IMG/VR virus record: IMGVR_UViG_3300045256_000030 | Location: 1-22,275 of that record | Origin: a virus | Length of the DNA: 22,275 bases | Direction: 5' to 3' (one strand) | In this document: positions 2,648 to 8,784 of the stretch, piece by piece | Layout of the letters: each line of letters starts with the position of its first letter | How positions within the stretch are numbered: position 1 is the stretch's first letter | Notes under the pieces: model-generated | Told to the model about the DNA's origin: nothing | The model's database searches: none | What the model saw: only the letters and a program-made list of their open reading frames with translations | Made by a program: the position numbers and the translations under genes

Positions 2648-3184
2648 ATGATTGCGGGCGGGCCTGCGCAAGAGGGATATGGAGCGATGAGCGGCGACCT
2701 TAACAGGGCATGGCCCTATCAGCGCGGCTATGCCGCCATCGGGCTCTGGCGTCCAAAGGACAAGGCCAACATCGGCGGTGTGATCCGCGCCGCGTGGTGC
2801 CATGGAGCGTCCATGGTGGCGGTCGGCCTTCCGCGCGGGAACGCAAACGAAGGCATCCGTCACAGTGCCAACACGCCGTCGGCATGGAAACACATTCCGG
2901 TCATCACTGGCAACGACCTGCACCCTCTGATTCCGTTCGATTGCGTGCCAGTAGCGGTTGACCTTGTACCGAACGCCTGCCCGCTGCCAAGTTACCAGCA
3001 CCCGCAGCGCGCATTTTACGTGTTTGGTCCCGAGGACGGGACGCTCAGTGAGGCCGTTCTTGATTGGTGCCGAGACCGTGTGTCGGTGCCGACGCGAACC
3101 TGCATGAATTTGGCCGCGACCGTGAACGTCGTGCTCTACGACCGAATCGCGAAGGCGATGCGATCGGCCCGCAAGGCGGCCTGA
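2648..3184 (+). CDS. SPOUT-class (SpoU/TrmH family) RNA 2'-O-methyltransferase
   Basis: The 178-aa product carries all three SpoU/TrmH motifs in order: motif 1 NIGGVIRAA (N41, R47), motif 2 FGPEDGTLSEAV (127-138) and motif 3 MNLAATVNVVLYDR (N154). These build the deep trefoil knot that binds S-adenosylmethionine and dimerises; enzymes of this family methylate ribose 2'-OH in tRNA or rRNA. It has a catalytic domain only, about the size of TrmL, with no extra RNA-binding domain. The start at 2648 has AAAGGAAA upstream; ATG 2687 (MSGDLNRAW), behind GGAG, is an alternative. A host-like RNA-modifying gene beside an integrase is probably cargo. The RNA target is unknown. Confidence 0.87.
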   Translation: MIAGGPAQEGYGAMSGDLNRAWPYQRGYAAIGLWRPKDKANIGGVIRAAWCHGASMVAVGLPRGNANEGIRHSANTPSAWKHIPVITGNDLHPLIPFDCVPVAVDLVPNACPLPSYQHPQRAFYVFGPEDGTLSEAVLDWCRDRVSVPTRTCMNLAATVNVVLYDRIAKAMRSARKAA

Positions 3185-3227: not shown

Positions 3228-3953
3228 ATGACCAAGCCAACCCGTAAGAGTCAGTCGGCAAAGGCTGCCCGCGCGGAAGAAAAGAGAATGGCGAAGATTG
3301 AGGCCGAACGTACGGTCCGCGCTGAGCGCGTCGCCAAGGTCTGGCGCAACGATCTGTCGCACAAGGACTGGCTACTCGACGGCCGACCAGTGCGCGGGAC
3401 GTTCCTGCTGGAAAAGTTCAATAATCTTGACTGGGACAAAGCCTGGGTAGACCTTGGGCCGTCGATCGCTGGGAATCTTGGTCCGTACTGGCATGTTCCG
3501 ATGAAAGAGGGGCATGGCGACACCACGCACCGCCTGTACCCGAAGGTGCTGCAATCGAAATGGGCGATGCTGATCCTGCACGCCTGCAATGAAGTGAAAC
3601 GCGCCGCGCGCTCACCGCAAAAGAGCGTGCGGCAAAATCTCGGGTCGATATGTCCGCCCTCAGCACCTACGGGTCCGAGCGGTTCGAGGCGCGCGATGTC
3701 TCGTGAGCGTGGACGGCGTCGAAGTCCGATGGATTATCCAGTGACCGGCCGCCAATTCGCTTCCATCCGCAAGCGCCTCGGCCTCAGTCTCTACGACTGG
3801 GGCCGTGCGCTCGGCTACGCCGGCAACCGCAACACGATCCAAGTCGCCATACACCGCTACGAGACCGGCGAGCGCGACATCCCGCCGTGGATTGGCAGAC
3901 TAGCCAGCATGTTCGACCTGCACGGGGTGCCGCCTGAGTTCATCGAATGCTAA
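3228..3953 (+). CDS. Unknown basic protein running into an HTH domain (241-codon frame, possibly two genes)
   Basis: Residues 1-125 form a charged N-terminus rich in Lys, Arg and Ala, followed by a globular stretch (DWLLDGRPVRGTFLLEKF, GPYWHVPMKEGHGD). I do not recognise its family. Residues 126-160 are proline/arginine-rich and look unlike a folded protein, while the -1 frame there gives a more natural sequence ending at 3706. From about residue 168 the frame encodes an XRE-like HTH. The likely explanation is two genes, the first shifted by one base, with the HTH gene starting at 3696 or 3729. A genuine 241-aa fusion cannot be excluded. It follows the methyltransferase by 43 bp in the same direction. 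Confidence 0.55.
   Translation: MTKPTRKSQSAKAARAEEKRMAKIEAERTVRAERVAKVWRNDLSHKDWLLDGRPVRGTFLLEKFNNLDWDKAWVDLGPSIAGNLGPYWHVPMKEGHGDTTHRLYPKVLQSKWAMLILHACNEVKRAARSPQKSVRQNLGSICPPSAPTGPSGSRRAMSRERGRRRSPMDYPVTGRQFASIRKRLGLSLYDWGRALGYAGNRNTIQVAIHRYETGERDIPPWIGRLASMFDLHGVPPEFIEC
3696..3953 (+). CDS. XRE-like HTH DNA-binding protein (alternative separate gene)
   Basis: Starting at ATG 3696 (or ATG 3729, MDYPVTGRQF) this is an 85-aa or 74-aa protein. It has a five-helix XRE/lambda-repressor-type fold: FASIRKRLGLSLYDWGRALGY, then TIQVAIHRYETGERDIP as turn and recognition helix, then WIGRLASMFDLHG. Such proteins bind operator DNA as dimers. The start at 3696 overlaps the stop of the -1 frame at 3704-3706, a normal phage gene overlap and the reason to suspect a separate gene. 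It is the last plus-strand gene before the convergent terminator. It could regulate the accessory genes upstream or act as an Aca-type autorepressor; the sequence shows no operator to decide. Confidence 0.5.
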   Translation: MSRERGRRRSPMDYPVTGRQFASIRKRLGLSLYDWGRALGYAGNRNTIQVAIHRYETGERDIPPWIGRLASMFDLHGVPPEFIEC

Positions 3954-4022: not shown

Positions 4023-4484
4023 CTATCGCGGCAACGGATTAAGCTGCCCACGCAAATAGTCGAGTTGTGATTTTGTTTCTCGTATCTGATCCCACATGCG
4101 CCGGTCGCGATCATTCAATTCCGCCAGCGCCCGAAGCCTATCGTCCTTGGCCTCGCGGATATAGCCGCGCAATGTCTCCTGATCTCCACGGATCGGCAGG
4201 AGCGCCATTGTGCCCAAGCCGCCGACCAGGGTTAAGATGAACATCAGGAACCCGATGGCCGGGGCCAGCATCCATTTGCGATCATCCTTCGCATCGATCT
4301 TGGAACTGATCCGATCAAGAGCGGCTGACACTTCTTGCCGCAGGCTGGCGATGCTTTGATCGACTCGGACGCCAAGCGCGTTGACGTTAGTGCCAAGCGC
4401 CTGAACATCGCTTTCAAGGCCAAGAACCTTCTGGTTCAGGGCGGCGATATTCGTTCCGCGCGAGCCATTGGTATCCTCGCTCAT
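4023..4484 (-). CDS. Coiled-coil membrane protein, lysis-associated
   Basis: This 153-aa protein has an N-terminal coiled coil (about 12-65, repeating LNQKVLGLESDVQALGTNV-type heptads). One long hydrophobic segment follows (about 71-96, WMLAPAIGFLMFILTLVGGLG), then a second charged coiled coil (about 101-148, YIREAKDDRLRALAELNDR). ATG 4484 was chosen over the upstream in-frame TTG because AGGGGA lies 11 bp before it. It directly follows the Rz1-like gene and is the last gene before the terminator. One membrane helix plus coiled coil is typical of phage spanin-type or holin-antagonist proteins, so a role in envelope disruption is inferred. The exact family is not recognised. Confidence 0.65.
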   Translation of the reverse strand: MSEDTNGSRGTNIAALNQKVLGLESDVQALGTNVNALGVRVDQSIASLRQEVSAALDRISSKIDAKDDRKWMLAPAIGFLMFILTLVGGLGTMALLPIRGDQETLRGYIREAKDDRLRALAELNDRDRRMWDQIRETKSQLDYLRGQLNPLPR

Positions 4485-4489
4485 CGGCG

Positions 4490-4702
4490 TCAATTCCCCT
4501 TGCAGGTTGCGCTATAAGCCGCGGCGAGCCGGTTCATGTAGCGGGCTGATTCCGGCGTGTCCTGGCGCGATGGACGAAGCACCCCGCCAGCCTGCCGCAC
4601 CACCTCACAAAACGGGGCCTTGCCGGTCGGGGCCGGCTGAACCGGCTGTGTGCAGGTCAGATAGGCGATGCCGAGCGCGAAGCCGATGCAGGTTGAGATC
4701 AT
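4490..4702 (-). CDS. Rz1-like exported Cys protein (outer spanin candidate)
   Basis: The 70-aa product begins MISTCIGFALGIAYLTC, a short export signal with a cysteine at 17, then a proline-rich linker (TQPVQPAPTG). It ends with an FCEVVRQ...SRQDTPESARYMNRLAAAYSATC domain. The FC...S..DT.E...N....C pattern recurs in small lysis proteins next to phage holin/endolysin genes. The -3 position before C17 is Tyr, so the lipobox is imperfect and lipidation is uncertain. ATG 4702 is preferred over TTG 4723 because AGGAA precedes it. The next gene starts five bases after its stop, so the two are probably expressed as a pair acting on the outer envelope. Confidence 0.62.
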   Translation of the reverse strand: MISTCIGFALGIAYLTCTQPVQPAPTGKAPFCEVVRQAGGVLRPSRQDTPESARYMNRLAAAYSATCKGN

Positions 4703-4731
4703 AGGACGCCGTTCCTGTAACAATTCGTGAC

Positions 4732-4761
4732 TTGATTTGTCCGATAAAGTCGGACTACTTT
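4732..4761 (+). promoter_or_regulatory. Promoter with palindromic operator in the spacer
   Basis: A sigma-70-like promoter, TTGATT (4732-4737), 18-bp spacer, TACTTT (4756-4761), lies 51 bp before the 140-aa gene. The spacer contains a perfect inverted repeat GTCCGA-N5-TCGGAC (4739-4755) ending exactly at the -10 box. A dimeric HTH protein bound there would block RNA polymerase. The obvious candidate is the HTH product of 5238-5603, by autorepression. The palindrome is seen directly; promoter activity and the binding partner are inferred. Confidence 0.55.
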
Positions 4762-4812
4762 CTCACATGAAGCGACGGGATGGCCCGACGCAGAAGCTCA
4801 CAGGGGCAGAAC

Positions 4813-5235
4813 ATGACCGCTTACACCCTCAATTTCTGGTCCAAAAATTGCGGCGCCACGCAAATCCGCCGGGTCTATGTCAACGCTGCCGACCGGTCCT
4901 CTCTCGGATACTTTGAGGAACGGATCGGATTGTCCGGCCGCGGCGAGAGCTATTATGATCAGCACCGGCTCGCGAAGGGCGACGCGACGGCTGAGACAGG
5001 CCGCACCTATGCCTGCACGGTTCCGGCTGAGGCCGCAGCGGCGATCTATGCCGCCCCGTCCATCGCCGCTCATATCGCAGCCGCGAAGTCCGATGACGAT
5101 TTTTCCAAATTCGACGCCCTCGTCCATCACGCGCGCGGCGTTGACATTATGCCGTATCACCCGGCGAAGTCCGCTGCAGGCCGCGCCGAGCGGAAGGCGA
5201 TCAAGGAACGTCAATCGTTCATGATTGAACTGTGA
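4813..5235 (+). CDS. Unknown protein, first gene of an acr-aca-like pair
   Basis: A 140-aa protein starting MTAYTLNFWSKNCGATQ. ATG 4813 was chosen because AGGGG sits seven bases upstream; an earlier in-frame ATG at 4780 has no such site. No known motif, signal peptide or membrane segment is visible. The N-terminal half looks like a beta-rich fold and the C-terminal half is alanine-rich helix (VPAEAAAAIYAAPSIAAHIAAAK). It runs opposite to the lysis genes on either side, has its own promoter with an operator-like palindrome, and is followed three bases later by an HTH gene. That layout matches anti-CRISPR loci, but the protein itself gives no functional clue. Confidence 0.7.
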   Translation: MTAYTLNFWSKNCGATQIRRVYVNAADRSSLGYFEERIGLSGRGESYYDQHRLAKGDATAETGRTYACTVPAEAAAAIYAAPSIAAHIAAAKSDDDFSKFDALVHHARGVDIMPYHPAKSAAGRAERKAIKERQSFMIEL

Positions 5236-5237
5236 CG

Positions 5238-5603
5238 ATGACCATCATATCCCTTATGATTGAACGCTGCGGCCTCTCTCAGTCTGAGGCCGCAGACTTC
5301 TTGAAGATCAGCCCGTCATATATCGACAAGATGTGCCGGGGCGTCCGGTCCACGCCGGACGGCATCATCGCCGAATTGTGCGATCTCTACGCGCGGATCG
5401 ACGCGACGGCCGCCGGAATTATGCGGTCGGTATCCGCCCTGGCACAAAAGGGCGTTGAGCCCGAGGACCGCATTGTCTGTACGATGACGGACGCTCAGGC
5501 CCGCGAGCGGGGATGGCCGTGCGCGTCGGCAGCCAATGCGGCCGTAGCAATCGCTATCGCGCTCTGCGAACACGATTTTATCGTCGAGCCCCTCGACGGC
5601 TAA
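5238..5603 (+). CDS. HTH regulator, Aca-like by context
   Basis: The 121-aa product opens with an HTH: MIERCGLSQSEAADFLKISPSYIDKMCRG (about residues 7-35) has helix, helix, turn and recognition helix. A helical middle (ELCDLYARIDATAAGIMRSVSALAQ) and a C-terminal domain probably serve dimerisation. ATG 5238 is three bases past the upstream stop; GTG 5232 would overlap that stop and is an alternative. It is the likely autorepressor of the two-gene operon through the GTCCGA-N5-TCGGAC site. Size, position as second gene and N-terminal HTH resemble anti-CRISPR-associated (Aca) proteins. I cannot assign it to a named Aca family. Its end overlaps the convergent 65-aa gene by four bases. Confidence 0.75.
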   Translation: MTIISLMIERCGLSQSEAADFLKISPSYIDKMCRGVRSTPDGIIAELCDLYARIDATAAGIMRSVSALAQKGVEPEDRIVCTMTDAQARERGWPCASAANAAVAIAIALCEHDFIVEPLDG

Positions 5604-5797
5604 TCCCGATACTCGATGTCCGCCTCGTCCATTGCGGCCTGCGTGCGCTTCAAGGCATCGTCCTCAAGCTTGCGCCCCGCATTGATCGCAGCATCGGCCC
5701 CGGCCTGCCGGTCATCCGCAGATCGCTTCCATGAGAAGAAATCGCGGATGAGGCCGACGAAGGTGGTGATAGCCGATAGGATCGCGGTCCAGCTCAT
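5600..5797 (-). CDS. Small membrane/coiled-coil protein (inner spanin candidate)
   Basis: Starting at ATG 5797, which overlaps the holin stop (ATGA), this is a 65-aa protein. It has an N-terminal hydrophobic segment (about 3-22, WTAILSAITTFVGLIRDFF) and a highly charged helical tail (KRSADDRQAGADAAINAGRKLEDDALKRTQAAMDEADIEYRD). The tail is a probable coiled coil. A single N-terminal anchor plus coiled coil resembles an Rz-type inner spanin, though it is much shorter than usual. It is coupled to the holin candidate and follows the lipoprotein. The role is inferred from topology and neighbourhood. Confidence 0.6.
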   Translation of the reverse strand: MSWTAILSAITTFVGLIRDFFSWKRSADDRQAGADAAINAGRKLEDDALKRTQAAMDEADIEYRD

Positions 5798-5958
5798 GCG
5801 GACTTGCGCTGCTGGTAGAGCCACCAGCCGAAGGTGGCGAGCGCGACGATGCCGCTGATGGCAGCCTGCGTCATTTCACCATCGGCAACGCTCTTGCCGA
5901 GCCACATCCCGGCGCCATTGTAGAGAAGGATTCGCAGAACCTGTTCCCATGTACCCAT
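5794..5958 (-). CDS. Small holin-like membrane protein, 54 aa
   Basis: ATG 5958 opens a 54-aa protein beginning MGTWEQVLRILLYNGAGMW with a second hydrophobic stretch AAISGIVALATFGWWLY and a basic end QQRKSA. The pattern of an N-terminal amphipathic RILLY segment, a short linker and one C-terminal membrane helix ending in W-W-Y and positive charges matches small Pam3-gp28-like phage holins. It would form the membrane lesion that times lysis. It lies in the lysis cassette downstream of the endolysin, with an ATGA overlap to the following gene. It is short enough to be missed by gene callers. Holin function is inferred. Confidence 0.62.
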   Translation of the reverse strand: MGTWEQVLRILLYNGAGMWLGKSVADGEMTQAAISGIVALATFGWWLYQQRKSA

Positions 5959-6001
5959 AGTATGGCCTTTCATTGTGATGCCGGATTCCGTCCGGCGCGG
6001 A

Positions 6002-6115
6002 TTACTTCTTCGGACACAGGACGTGCGCCGATTGCTTGCAGGCCAGTAGCCGTGACTGGACGCAGGCCGCCAGAGCGAAGCCGATCAGGATCAGTACGAC
6101 AGCGGTGCGGATCAT
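6002..6115 (-). CDS. Tiny lipoprotein, 37 aa (outer spanin candidate)
   Basis: ATG 6115 lies three bases after the alpha/beta hydrolase stop and opens 37 codons. The product is MIRTAVVLILIGFALAAC plus a 19-residue tail ending CPKK. Residues 1-18 are a textbook lipoprotein signal peptide with lipobox LAAC (C18). The mature peptide is only 20 residues and has two more cysteines. Tiny lipoproteins in phage lysis cassettes are often Rz1-like outer spanins that fuse inner and outer membranes with an inner-membrane partner; here the partner could be the 65-aa protein two genes on. It lacks the proline richness of Rz1, so an entry-exclusion or unknown role remains possible. Confidence 0.6.
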   Translation of the reverse strand: MIRTAVVLILIGFALAACVQSRLLACKQSAHVLCPKK

Positions 6116-6118
6116 GGC

Positions 6119-6634
6119 CTATAACTTCGCCACCTCTGCGATCACGCGATTATGCACAACCGGCGCGTCGTCAAGCCACGTATGCCCGCCGTCCATTAGA
6201 AGGTCGGTTATGCGCGGCGTTCCTGTCGGCTTAAGCTGCCCTCGTCCGATCGCGCCCTGCGCCTGCCGGATACCGATTGCGCGCTGAATATTTCCTGGCA
6301 CGGTCAGATCGTATTGTGCAGCCGGGTCAATTGCGATCAGGAGCGCGATCCTGATGTTTGGAATAAGACGCGCTGCCATTAGTAACACGTTCGCGCCGAA
6401 CGAATGCCCAACAAGTACGACGGTCTGGCCGTTGTCCCGGAGCCGCTTGATTTCATCTGCGATGACTTGCTTGTTCGCGAACCACGCGAGAAAGAAAAAC
6501 GAGTGGTTCCAGACCTGCGTGTTGTAGCCGAGGCTGCTTAGCTTACCCGCAAGCGTGTCCATGCCGCGCGAATAAATCATCCCAAGCAGACCGCGAACGA
6601 GGATGACAGTGATTTGCTTTGCCGGTGTAGTCAT
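6119..6634 (-). CDS. Alpha/beta hydrolase (esterase/lipase-like) in the lysis cassette
   Basis: ATG 6634 overlaps the endolysin stop (ATGA), giving a 171-aa protein that starts MTTPAKQITVILVRGLLG; the longer open frame upstream is endolysin sequence in another frame. The nucleophile elbow GHSFGAN places Ser at 78. AIDPAAQ (D103) and GGHTWLDD (H151) supply the rest of a serine-hydrolase triad. The strand-turn VILVRGLLG would form the oxyanion region. No signal peptide is visible. It may cleave a lipid or ester in the envelope, by analogy to LysB esterases of mycobacteriophages, but that analogy is positional only. It is small for the fold, with little room for a lid domain. Confidence 0.78.
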   Translation of the reverse strand: MTTPAKQITVILVRGLLGMIYSRGMDTLAGKLSSLGYNTQVWNHSFFFLAWFANKQVIADEIKRLRDNGQTVVLVGHSFGANVLLMAARLIPNIRIALLIAIDPAAQYDLTVPGNIQRAIGIRQAQGAIGRGQLKPTGTPRITDLLMDGGHTWLDDAPVVHNRVIAEVAKL

Positions 6635-7152
6635 GAGCGCGCCGCCCACTTGATTGCCGTTGCCCTGACATCCGCAATGCGGCGCCCCCATCCCTTGCCG
6701 AACACAGGCCACGTATTCAGCGATTGGACGAAGGCAAGGCGGGCATCGCATAGTTGCGCGGCGACGTTCTCAGGCTTGCGGGCGCGGACGGCCTTGAGCG
6801 TGGCCGGACCGATCTTGCCGTCCTGCACTGCGCCGACGATCCGCTGCAGATATTTGGCCGCGCGGGACGGCCCGGAGTTCACAGCAAAGTCGAACACAGC
6901 ATAATCGACGCCGGACGGAAGCTCGGCACCGAGCACGGCGTCCCAGTAGTGCCGCCGATAAACCACTGCGATCTGCGCATCGGTGATCCGGCGCAGGTCC
7001 GCCTTGGTCGCATCAGGCTTCACAAAGCGGCGGAAGTTTGCGAGCGTGACGCCCTTCATGGTCGCGCCGCCAGGGTCGGACGGATGATCGGACCACCCGC
7101 CCTCGTGCTTCAAAACGAGTTTTAGCGCAGCGTCGAAATTCTCCGATGCCAT
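6631..7152 (-). CDS. Endolysin, glycoside hydrolase family 108
   Basis: The 173-aa protein begins with FDAALKLVLKHEGGWSDHPSDPGGATMKGVT, the GH108 (ZliS-like) signature. The catalytic glutamate is E17 in HEGGW and is followed by the DPGG..KG loop. The C-terminal half (AAKYLQRIVGAVQDGKIGPATL) is the peptidoglycan-binding domain 3 typical of the family. It would hydrolyse the glycan strands of peptidoglycan at lysis. There is no N-terminal signal or SAR segment, so export should depend on the holin. GGAGG sits six bases before the ATG, the best ribosome site in the cassette. The next gene overlaps its stop by ATGA. Confidence 0.93.
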   Translation of the reverse strand: MASENFDAALKLVLKHEGGWSDHPSDPGGATMKGVTLANFRRFVKPDATKADLRRITDAQIAVVYRRHYWDAVLGAELPSGVDYAVFDFAVNSGPSRAAKYLQRIVGAVQDGKIGPATLKAVRARKPENVAAQLCDARLAFVQSLNTWPVFGKGWGRRIADVRATAIKWAARS

Positions 7153-7596: not shown

Positions 7597-7817
7597 GCCG
7601 GATCACCTGCCGGTTCGCATTTCCACGCGACTGATACCTTGTCCGACCAATCCAACTTAGCAACACCGCGTGCATAATCAGCAAGCCGGTCTTTCATGAC
7701 GGCGCCGAAGGCTTGGCACATGGCATCATCCTTGAACGCCGTTGTCTCGCCAATCGTGATGACCTGCGGTCCGGCTTGGGCATGAACGAAGGCGATGAAC
7801 CACAGCATCTTTATCAT
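7593..7817 (-). CDS. Small secreted hypothetical protein, 74 aa
   Basis: The product starts with an export signal (MIKMLWFIAFVHAQA) and has a 59-residue mature part with two cysteines (C34, C67) that could form a disulfide. The order AFKDDAMCQAFGAVMKDRLADYARG...VAWKCEP recalls small periplasmic proteins with a variable helix between paired cysteines. It overlaps both neighbours by ATGA junctions (7814-7817 and 7593-7596). Function is unknown. It is read with the HNH gene upstream and the Cys-rich gene downstream. Confidence 0.6.
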   Translation of the reverse strand: MIKMLWFIAFVHAQAGPQVITIGETTAFKDDAMCQAFGAVMKDRLADYARGVAKLDWSDKVSVAWKCEPAGDPA

Positions 7818-8332
7818 CCGGCCCTCGCAAATTCACCGAACCGACGAGTGGCCTCGCGCACATAGGCTGCATGTGCCTCTTGCGCAGTGTCGTATCGACC
7901 AATAACGATGTTCTGATAGTTGACCTTGATCCTTGCCTCAAACCGCAGGCCAAACTGTCGGACGCCCTTTACGCCAAGTCGGTTCGTCTTGTTGATTCGA
8001 CGGTTACGATTTTGATCATGGCGATCTGCTACCCGCAGATTCGAAATCGAGTTGTTGGCCGGATGGCCATCAATGTGATCAATCTCGCGCTCTGGCCATT
8101 CGCCATGCACATAGAGCCATGCCAAGCGGTGAGCCTTATAAAGGCGGCAATCGACATTGATGCAAATATAACCGTGCTTGTCAGGCGTACCAGCAATTGT
8201 CCCGGCAATAGCTTTGCCGCCACGGTTGACGCGCCAAGTAAATTGGCCTGTTTCTTCACAATAATGAAGGAGCGTTCGCAACCGTTCAGCACTTGGAGTT
8301 TGCTTTGTATGGGTGCCGCGCTTGATCTTCAT
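7814..8332 (-). CDS. HNH endonuclease with AP2 domain (free-standing homing type)
   Basis: ATG 8332 overlaps the stop of the M15 gene (ATGA) and was preferred over GTG 8341. The 172-aa product has an N-terminal beta region, the HNH motif EIDHIDGHPANNSISNLR (D85, H86, N94, N98), then an AP2-type DNA-binding domain (about 118-165: GVKGVRQFGLRFEARI, then IGRYDTAQEAHAAYV). Proteins of this layout nick DNA and spread by homing between phages. It interrupts the lysis gene series yet is coupled on both sides by four-base overlaps, so it disrupts neither reading frame. It is probably selfish cargo; a packaging-linked HNH role is less likely because no terminase is nearby. Confidence 0.92.
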   Translation of the reverse strand: MKIKRGTHTKQTPSAERLRTLLHYCEETGQFTWRVNRGGKAIAGTIAGTPDKHGYICINVDCRLYKAHRLAWLYVHGEWPEREIDHIDGHPANNSISNLRVADRHDQNRNRRINKTNRLGVKGVRQFGLRFEARIKVNYQNIVIGRYDTAQEAHAAYVREATRRFGEFARAG

Positions 8333-8784
8333 CGTCGCCACATCTTTCTGGCCGATACGCTTCGGCCATATCCGTTGGCATTGAAGGCCGCCCCTCTCTG
8401 TCCTGTATTAAAGTGAATGTGTTGATGCGTTGAGTACGTCATCACGAACACGCCCTGCGAGCGCAGGAAGGCAATCGCCTCGCCCTTGCGGCGGGTGTTG
8501 AAATCGACGGCACGGCCGATGGCGTGCTTGCTCTGGCGATTGGTGCCTGCGATGCGCGCCCCCGGCCGGCAGGTCGAGACGATCTGCACCGCGCCAACGC
8601 GAGCCTCCAGACGGTTCAGCACCGCGCGGGTGTCGCCCGTCAGGCAGGACCGGGAGGTGGACGCCTTGGCATAACCGCCGAGCGTGCCGTGCTGTGCCGC
8701 GGCGTTCCACGGCCCCTGAAAGAAGGCAAAAGCGGGAGAGGCAACGCTGGCGAGCACCAGCGCAGCCGCGATCAATCGCAGCAT
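8329..8784 (-). CDS. Secreted M15-family peptidase (D-Ala-D-Ala/L-Ala-D-Glu type)
   Basis: The 151-aa protein has a clear Sec signal peptide (1-20, cleavage after PAFA). The zinc motif S-K-H-A-I-G-R-A-V-D (S85, H87, D94) and a downstream HQHIHFN (H122/H124) supply the metal ligands. STCRPGARIAG before the first motif fits the M15_3/peptidase M15A fold. It would cut peptide stems or cross-bridges in the periplasm. It is the first gene of the lysis operon, with AGG upstream of its ATG. With a GH108 endolysin four genes on, the phage has two murein enzymes, one exported by Sec. Cell-wall trimming during infection or superinfection control are alternatives to lysis. Confidence 0.85.
   Translation of the reverse strand: MLRLIAAALVLASVASPAFAFFQGPWNAAAQHGTLGGYAKASTSRSCLTGDTRAVLNRLEARVGAVQIVSTCRPGARIAGTNRQSKHAIGRAVDFNTRRKGEAIAFLRSQGVFVMTYSTHQHIHFNTGQRGAAFNANGYGRSVSARKMWRR

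Follow-up and report, generated by a model that had tools for sequence, protein, structure and literature searches.

The stretch of DNA considered here, referred to as the window, corresponds to a virus record in IMG/VR (IMGVR_UViG_3300045256_000030; 22,275 bases) that carries an operon of two small genes on its plus strand. The first gene (4813–5235, with the ATG at 4813 and the stop at 5235) encodes an orphan protein of 140 amino acids, below called the cargo, while the second (5238–5603, with the ATG at 5238 and the stop at 5603) encodes a helix-turn-helix (HTH) regulator of 121 amino acids; two bases separate the stop of the former from the ATG of the latter. The flanking genes are all found on the minus strand, i.e., on one side an ORF (5600–5824), a Pam3 gp28-family holin (5797–5973), an alpha/beta hydrolase (6122–6751) and a GH108 endolysin (6634–7152), and on the other two small ORFs (4490–4723 and 4023–4493), as described in the first-pass annotation, which had placed a plus-strand two-gene operon within a minus-strand lysis region. 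A second contig of the same phage, IMGVR_UViG_3300045107_000045 (25,247 bases), overlaps the window and harbors an identical operon. Next to the lysis region is an HNH_3 endonuclease gene (7814–8341, minus strand), and genes for a DUF5131 protein (238–957), a SpoU-type RNA methylase (2648–3184) and a protein with a C-terminal HTH (3228–3953), all on the plus strand, are located near the integrase gene (1249–2484).

Upstream of the cargo gene, on the same strand, a -35 element, TTGATT (4732–4737), and a putative -10 element, TACTTT (4756–4761), assigned from the sequence as a consensus match, enclose the palindrome GTCCGA-TAAAG-TCGGAC (4739–4755); the perfect GTCCGA-N5-TCGGAC repeat noted earlier between the two elements is indeed present. 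About five perfect 6-N5-6 palindromes are expected by chance in 22 kb (22275/4096), so that the palindrome by itself proves little. It is accepted as real because it recurs in related loci, where the same geometry was compared in 31 leaders and at least five of the six operator pairs are found in 29 of these, as compared to 2.5 (maximum 8) in shuffled leaders. Counted over all pairs, 173 of 186 are formed, while exchange of the halves between loci yields 144.8 ± 3.6. At each locus the order upstream of the first cargo gene is -35 element, short gap, 6-N5-6 palindrome and -10 element, and almost all relatives have a TTGAC-type -35 element in the corresponding position. The most common half-sites are ATACAC and GTACAC, while that of the window is GTCCGA and that of one relative (locus L024) is GTGTGA. 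An inverted repeat over the -35/-10 region, a hallmark of the Aca class, is thus part of this promoter.

In the 121-residue protein, the HTH domain exceeds the Pfam thresholds of both HTH_31 and HTH_3. A tblastn search yielded one relative in an annotated phage, Bradyrhizobium phage ppBeUSDA76-1, and from this phage the search led to Roseomonas MAGs and Shinella, then to genomes of the same order, class and family, and to 26 viral contigs. The HTH family is found in about 35 phage or prophage loci and is recognized by a C-terminal motif, DDHEA..GWPC..A..LG, usually followed by VPRG.T.ATAAAAD. In about 30 loci other than that of the window, the regulator recurs together with the palindrome and a leader hairpin (see below), and the named hosts are all alphaproteobacteria. 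A first scan of genome contigs gave no match, and L009, a candidate from an initial scan of viral sequences that used an alignment of two sequences, was a false relative.

An AF2 model of the HTH protein (12 sequences aligned) has a pLDDT of 91. When compared to the PDB using Foldseek, the model matches SO3848 (2ox6) first, followed by Aca2 (7b5j, 7vjq, 7vjo and 7ezy), with alignments that span 117–129 columns for the 121-residue query and TM values of about 0.6–0.84. The full-length alignment thus covers both the N-terminal HTH and the C-terminal dimerization domain that define the Aca2 fold. At the sequence level the similarity is marginal: the top PDB match of the family profile is Aca2 with an E value of 0.01, and three of eight family members match Pfam Aca2_YdiL (PF08965) weakly (best E 0.0012). 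Because the window protein itself gives no match to PF08965 at E values up to 1, it is classified as Aca2-like on the basis of its fold and operon organization rather than as a family member by sequence. In addition to the typical members, one contig (G360:C145:6933-8458) contains two operons in tandem, L033 and L024, each with a palindrome promoter, cargo and an HTH paralogue, and in the first of them the HTH is extended by a fused C-terminal domain of 100 residues. More distant HTH relatives of about 109–130 residues with the motif SNFSDMM..VGLS..EAA (L025–L030) are found in several Rhizobiales genomes.

A link between the regulator and the palindrome is seen at residue 37 of the HTH protein, i.e., the position that follows G-R (or G-V, G-K) in the recognition helix, which is Arg in the window protein. 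Whether or not this residue is Arg predicts the first base of the half-sites in 31 of 31 loci: both half-sites start with G in all 12 loci with Arg and in none of the 19 loci with Asn or Ala (Fisher p = 7e-9, where related loci are counted as independent). On the best tree, built without these columns, residue 37 changed at least seven times, and the three independent contrasts that fall on well-supported branches all go in the predicted direction, a number too small for significance alone. Furthermore, the HTH proteins of the window and of L024 both carry an unusual RGVR, and their half-sites end in GA rather than AC. Among the computational results, the covariation at residue 37 argues most strongly that the HTH protein reads the predicted operator palindrome.

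Between the promoter and the ATG, the leader contains two stem-loops, a feature absent from the first-pass annotation. The first, SL1 (4772–4791, plus strand), reads GCG-A-CGGG-AUGG-CCCG-A-CGC and ends 21 nt ahead of the start codon. About 30 leaders have a covarying hairpin in this position, with an AUUGG- or AUGG-type loop closed by G-C pairs and a 3' end that is positioned about 20–30 nt ahead of the ATG; examples are GCG-A-CGAG-AUCG-CUCG-A-CGC in L024 and AGGCUGG-AUUGG-CCAGCCU in L058. The arms of SL1 are paired at 228 of 256 positions, as compared to 172 ± 5 (maximum 192 in 2000 trials) when the 3' arms are swapped among loci; choosing the limits to give the best hairpin for every leader inflates the count, related loci are counted as independent, and the arm-swap control corrects the pairing only in part. 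The second stem-loop, SL2 (GCUC-ACAG-GGGC, 4796–4807, plus strand), lies over the Shine-Dalgarno site, and a stem of this type with at least 4 bp spans that site in 24 of the 32 leaders, as compared to 5.6 ± 2.0 for shuffled tails. Aca2 reportedly blocks translation through leader hairpins.

Because a MAFFT alignment of all leaders placed tetra- and pentaloops out of register, a covariance model was derived from five leaders with tetraloops, and the counts over the full set of leaders were subsequently made in Python. In the five-sequence alignment, the palindrome and hairpin together scored better than every slide and nearly every shuffle. The model matches ahead of the operon in six held-out prophage loci (L012, L014, L016, L035, L036 and L038; the weakest, at an E value of 0.04, is L036) as well as in the majority of the 26 viral loci, which had been retrieved by protein alone, nearly all with E < 0.001. 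In a search of 397 whole genomes, strong matches were confined to four, all of which harbor the HTH protein; three of these contributed to the model, while the fourth (Shinella) did not. Weaker matches in two other genomes, G377 and G185, were found on checking to be due to chance. A scan of all viral contigs for the exact SL1 motif identified two contigs, both with the HTH downstream, and no RNA family in Rfam matched the leader hairpin.

The HTH gene is the last gene in nearly every relative, where it overlaps or abuts a short gene upstream; a last position behind small phage-operon genes is typical of the Aca class, and here a few loci are cut at contig ends and one, L021, is equivocal. In contrast to the regulator, the cargo genes vary. 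The first-pass annotation found no recognizable family for the 140-residue protein, and it remains an orphan in all libraries and genomes searched: only chance-level matches were obtained in Pfam, PHROGs, NCBIfam, PADLOC, the PDB, phages, viral contigs and 397 genomes from the order that includes Shinella, i.e., no convincing homologue was seen beyond the same phage. A structure prediction had also been proposed at that stage; the single-sequence AF2 model has a pLDDT of 36 and offers no usable structure. An all-against-all comparison of 35 cargo proteins showed relatedness only within a cluster of four and within a single pair, which leaves about 30 families. When 34 of them, i.e., all except a 246-residue protein of L072, were scanned against the libraries, there was one strong PHROG match, to a family without annotated function; Pfam, NCBIfam and PADLOC gave no convincing family. 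Neither the 140-residue protein nor any other cargo matched a known Acr family in the libraries scanned, and comparison of the cargos to these general family libraries revealed no known acr gene beside any HTH relative.

The closest known parallel is the acrIF8-aca2 operon of Pectobacterium phage ZF40, which, like that of the window, consists of a small ORF followed by an HTH gene encoding a two-domain fold, with an inverted repeat over the promoter and a second repeat with an ATTGG loop downstream. The ZF40 region contains GTTCGC-AATT-GCGAAC and then GATTCGAG-ATTGG-CTCGAATC (PMC9410881), and the loop of this second repeat is the most common SL1 loop in the window HTH family. The two systems differ in the operator, which is of the GTTCGC-N4 type in ZF40 and of the RTACAC-N5 type in the window family (GTCCGA in the window), and in that the two ZF40 repeats are alike, whereas the operator halves and hairpin stems of the window family are unrelated. 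They also differ in that the sequence similarity of the regulators is marginal, and the named hosts of the window family are alphaproteobacteria. SO3848, the best full-chain structural match, is likewise encoded by a second gene behind another ORF with an inverted repeat in the promoter, and together with YdiL it is the only DALI match that covers both Aca2 domains (PMC8434428). However, SO3848 has extra C-terminal helices, both SO3848 and YdiL are described outside prophages, SO3848 adjoining an SMI1/KNR4-like gene, and no conserved leader hairpin is reported for them in that study (PMC8434428). In the acrIC7-acrIC6-aca10 operon, an HTH dimer of Aca10 binds a palindrome over the -35 and -10 elements (PMC9410881), as proposed here, but that palindrome is 21 bp long with a 1-bp spacer and the binding site is different. 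The Bradyrhizobium phage protein WAX24372.1 belongs to the same HTH family (about 36% identity) and is also encoded by the second gene, behind a 98-residue ORF and adjoining lysis genes on the opposite strand, while the 98-residue cargo is unrelated to the 140-residue protein. More generally, no more than 3% of Aca2-like proteins have a known acr gene as a neighbor (PMC9410906).

The earlier proposal that the HTH protein is an Aca-like autorepressor is strongly supported by the Aca2 fold, the promoter operator, the covariation of operator and protein, and the last position in operons with variable cargo. The most probable reading, to which we assign a probability of about three in four, is that an Aca2-like protein regulates its own operon on the DNA, and probably also on the mRNA, behind a hypervariable and probably anti-defense cargo. 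For this cassette we infer repression, RNA binding and an anti-defense role along the following lines. Early in infection the unrepressed promoter (4732–4761) would drive a burst of cargo protein; dimers of the HTH protein made from the second gene would then bind the 17-bp palindrome and switch off transcription, and would probably also bind the hairpins in their own mRNA leader (4772–4807) and block translation. The cargo would be a fast-changing accessory protein that is needed early and is harmful or wasteful later, most likely an inhibitor of a host defense (CRISPR-Cas or another). That the cargo is probably counter-defense follows from the association of a single regulator with numerous small orphan partners that are unrelated to each other, an association that is the signature of acr-aca loci.

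Two alternatives concern the nature of the cargo. The regulation could be Aca2-like while the cargo serves lysogenic conversion, superinfection exclusion or host takeover and is kept low in the lysogen. The moron-like position of the cassette in the lysis region and the lack of known Acr families among the cargos are consistent with such a role, as is the fact that Aca2-like regulators occur in many contexts, exemplified by SO3848 (PMC8434428); yet a turnover of about 30 families among 35 proteins behind one regulator is typical of counter-defense loci, and we consider this explanation unlikely. The operon could also encode a toxin followed by an autoregulating HTH antitoxin, given two small abutting genes with the HTH second, a palindromic promoter and partial structural matches of the HTH to the NatR antitoxin (Foldseek). 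These NatRT matches are limited to 74 columns, as compared to the entire chain for Aca2; none of the cargos scanned against the libraries, including that of the window operon, matches a toxin family; and some 30 unrelated partners for one regulator family, up to four in a row (L072), are unlike a toxin-antitoxin system, which makes this possibility very improbable.

A third alternative applies to the leader, where the hairpins might act without the HTH protein, e.g., as an RNase or ribosome-access element, with the HTH bound to the DNA operator only. Even though SL2 could mask the Shine-Dalgarno site unaided, SL1 is inherited with the HTH family in nearly all loci, strong genome matches of the covariance model are seen only where the HTH is present, the SL1 loop matches that of the acrIF8-aca2 leader, and Aca2 is described in the title of Birkholz et al. 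(2024, Nature 631:670, via PMC12456014) as an RNA- and DNA-binding HTH protein. A purely HTH-independent role of the hairpins is therefore a rather improbable explanation.

The presumably autoregulated, probably anti-defense cassette may belong to a wider system. Tentatively, and with odds that we place slightly below even, a previously undescribed clade of Aca2-fold regulators in alphaproteobacterial phages would run a hypervariable slot via the operator and the SL1 mRNA hairpin with its AUUGG loop, the approximately 30 orphan cargo families, including the 140-residue protein, would mostly be new inhibitors of CRISPR or other defenses, and the leader could be used to find more of them. In the full-text literature searched, mostly outside subscription papers, neither the HTH clade nor its leader was found to be described, and we saw no report of an Aca2-type system in these hosts or of an aca marker of this Aca2-like type for Rhizobiales or Roseomonas-like hosts. 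The lack of a common sequence makes anti-defense genes difficult to find; here, about 30 orphan families, unrelated to each other and carried by phages of Rhizobiales and Roseomonas-like hosts, are marked by a regulator and leader with recognizable sequences, which would offer a handle for finding new phage counter-defense genes. The Aca2-type leader hairpin is also extended to a distant clade in which the hairpin stem and DNA operator are no longer alike, so that the question of how one HTH protein could read both becomes testable, and the rule that connects residue 37 to base 1 offers a direct and cheap test of operator recognition.

Some of the individual cargo genes have features of their own. 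In L072 (reverse complement 4640-6780), the leader is followed by about four cargo genes, including that of the 246-residue protein, and then the HTH gene. One cargo family with a DG..Y/W-E-I/W-R motif, for which no relative was found in the PDB, is common to L016, L038, L045 and L056. A well-conserved Roseomonas cargo protein (GFWGTM...WMGWRI..RTS...GIPAGLPYLTGF) is encoded in the L011:5635-5997 region. Acidithiobacillus phage AcaML1 was considered as a further member locus and rejected, as its gene cluster does not end in an HTH of the window family; its gp28 (L073:2501-2866) is 55% identical to the Roseomonas GFWGTM protein and is located in a cluster of small genes between DNA methylases and the terminase.
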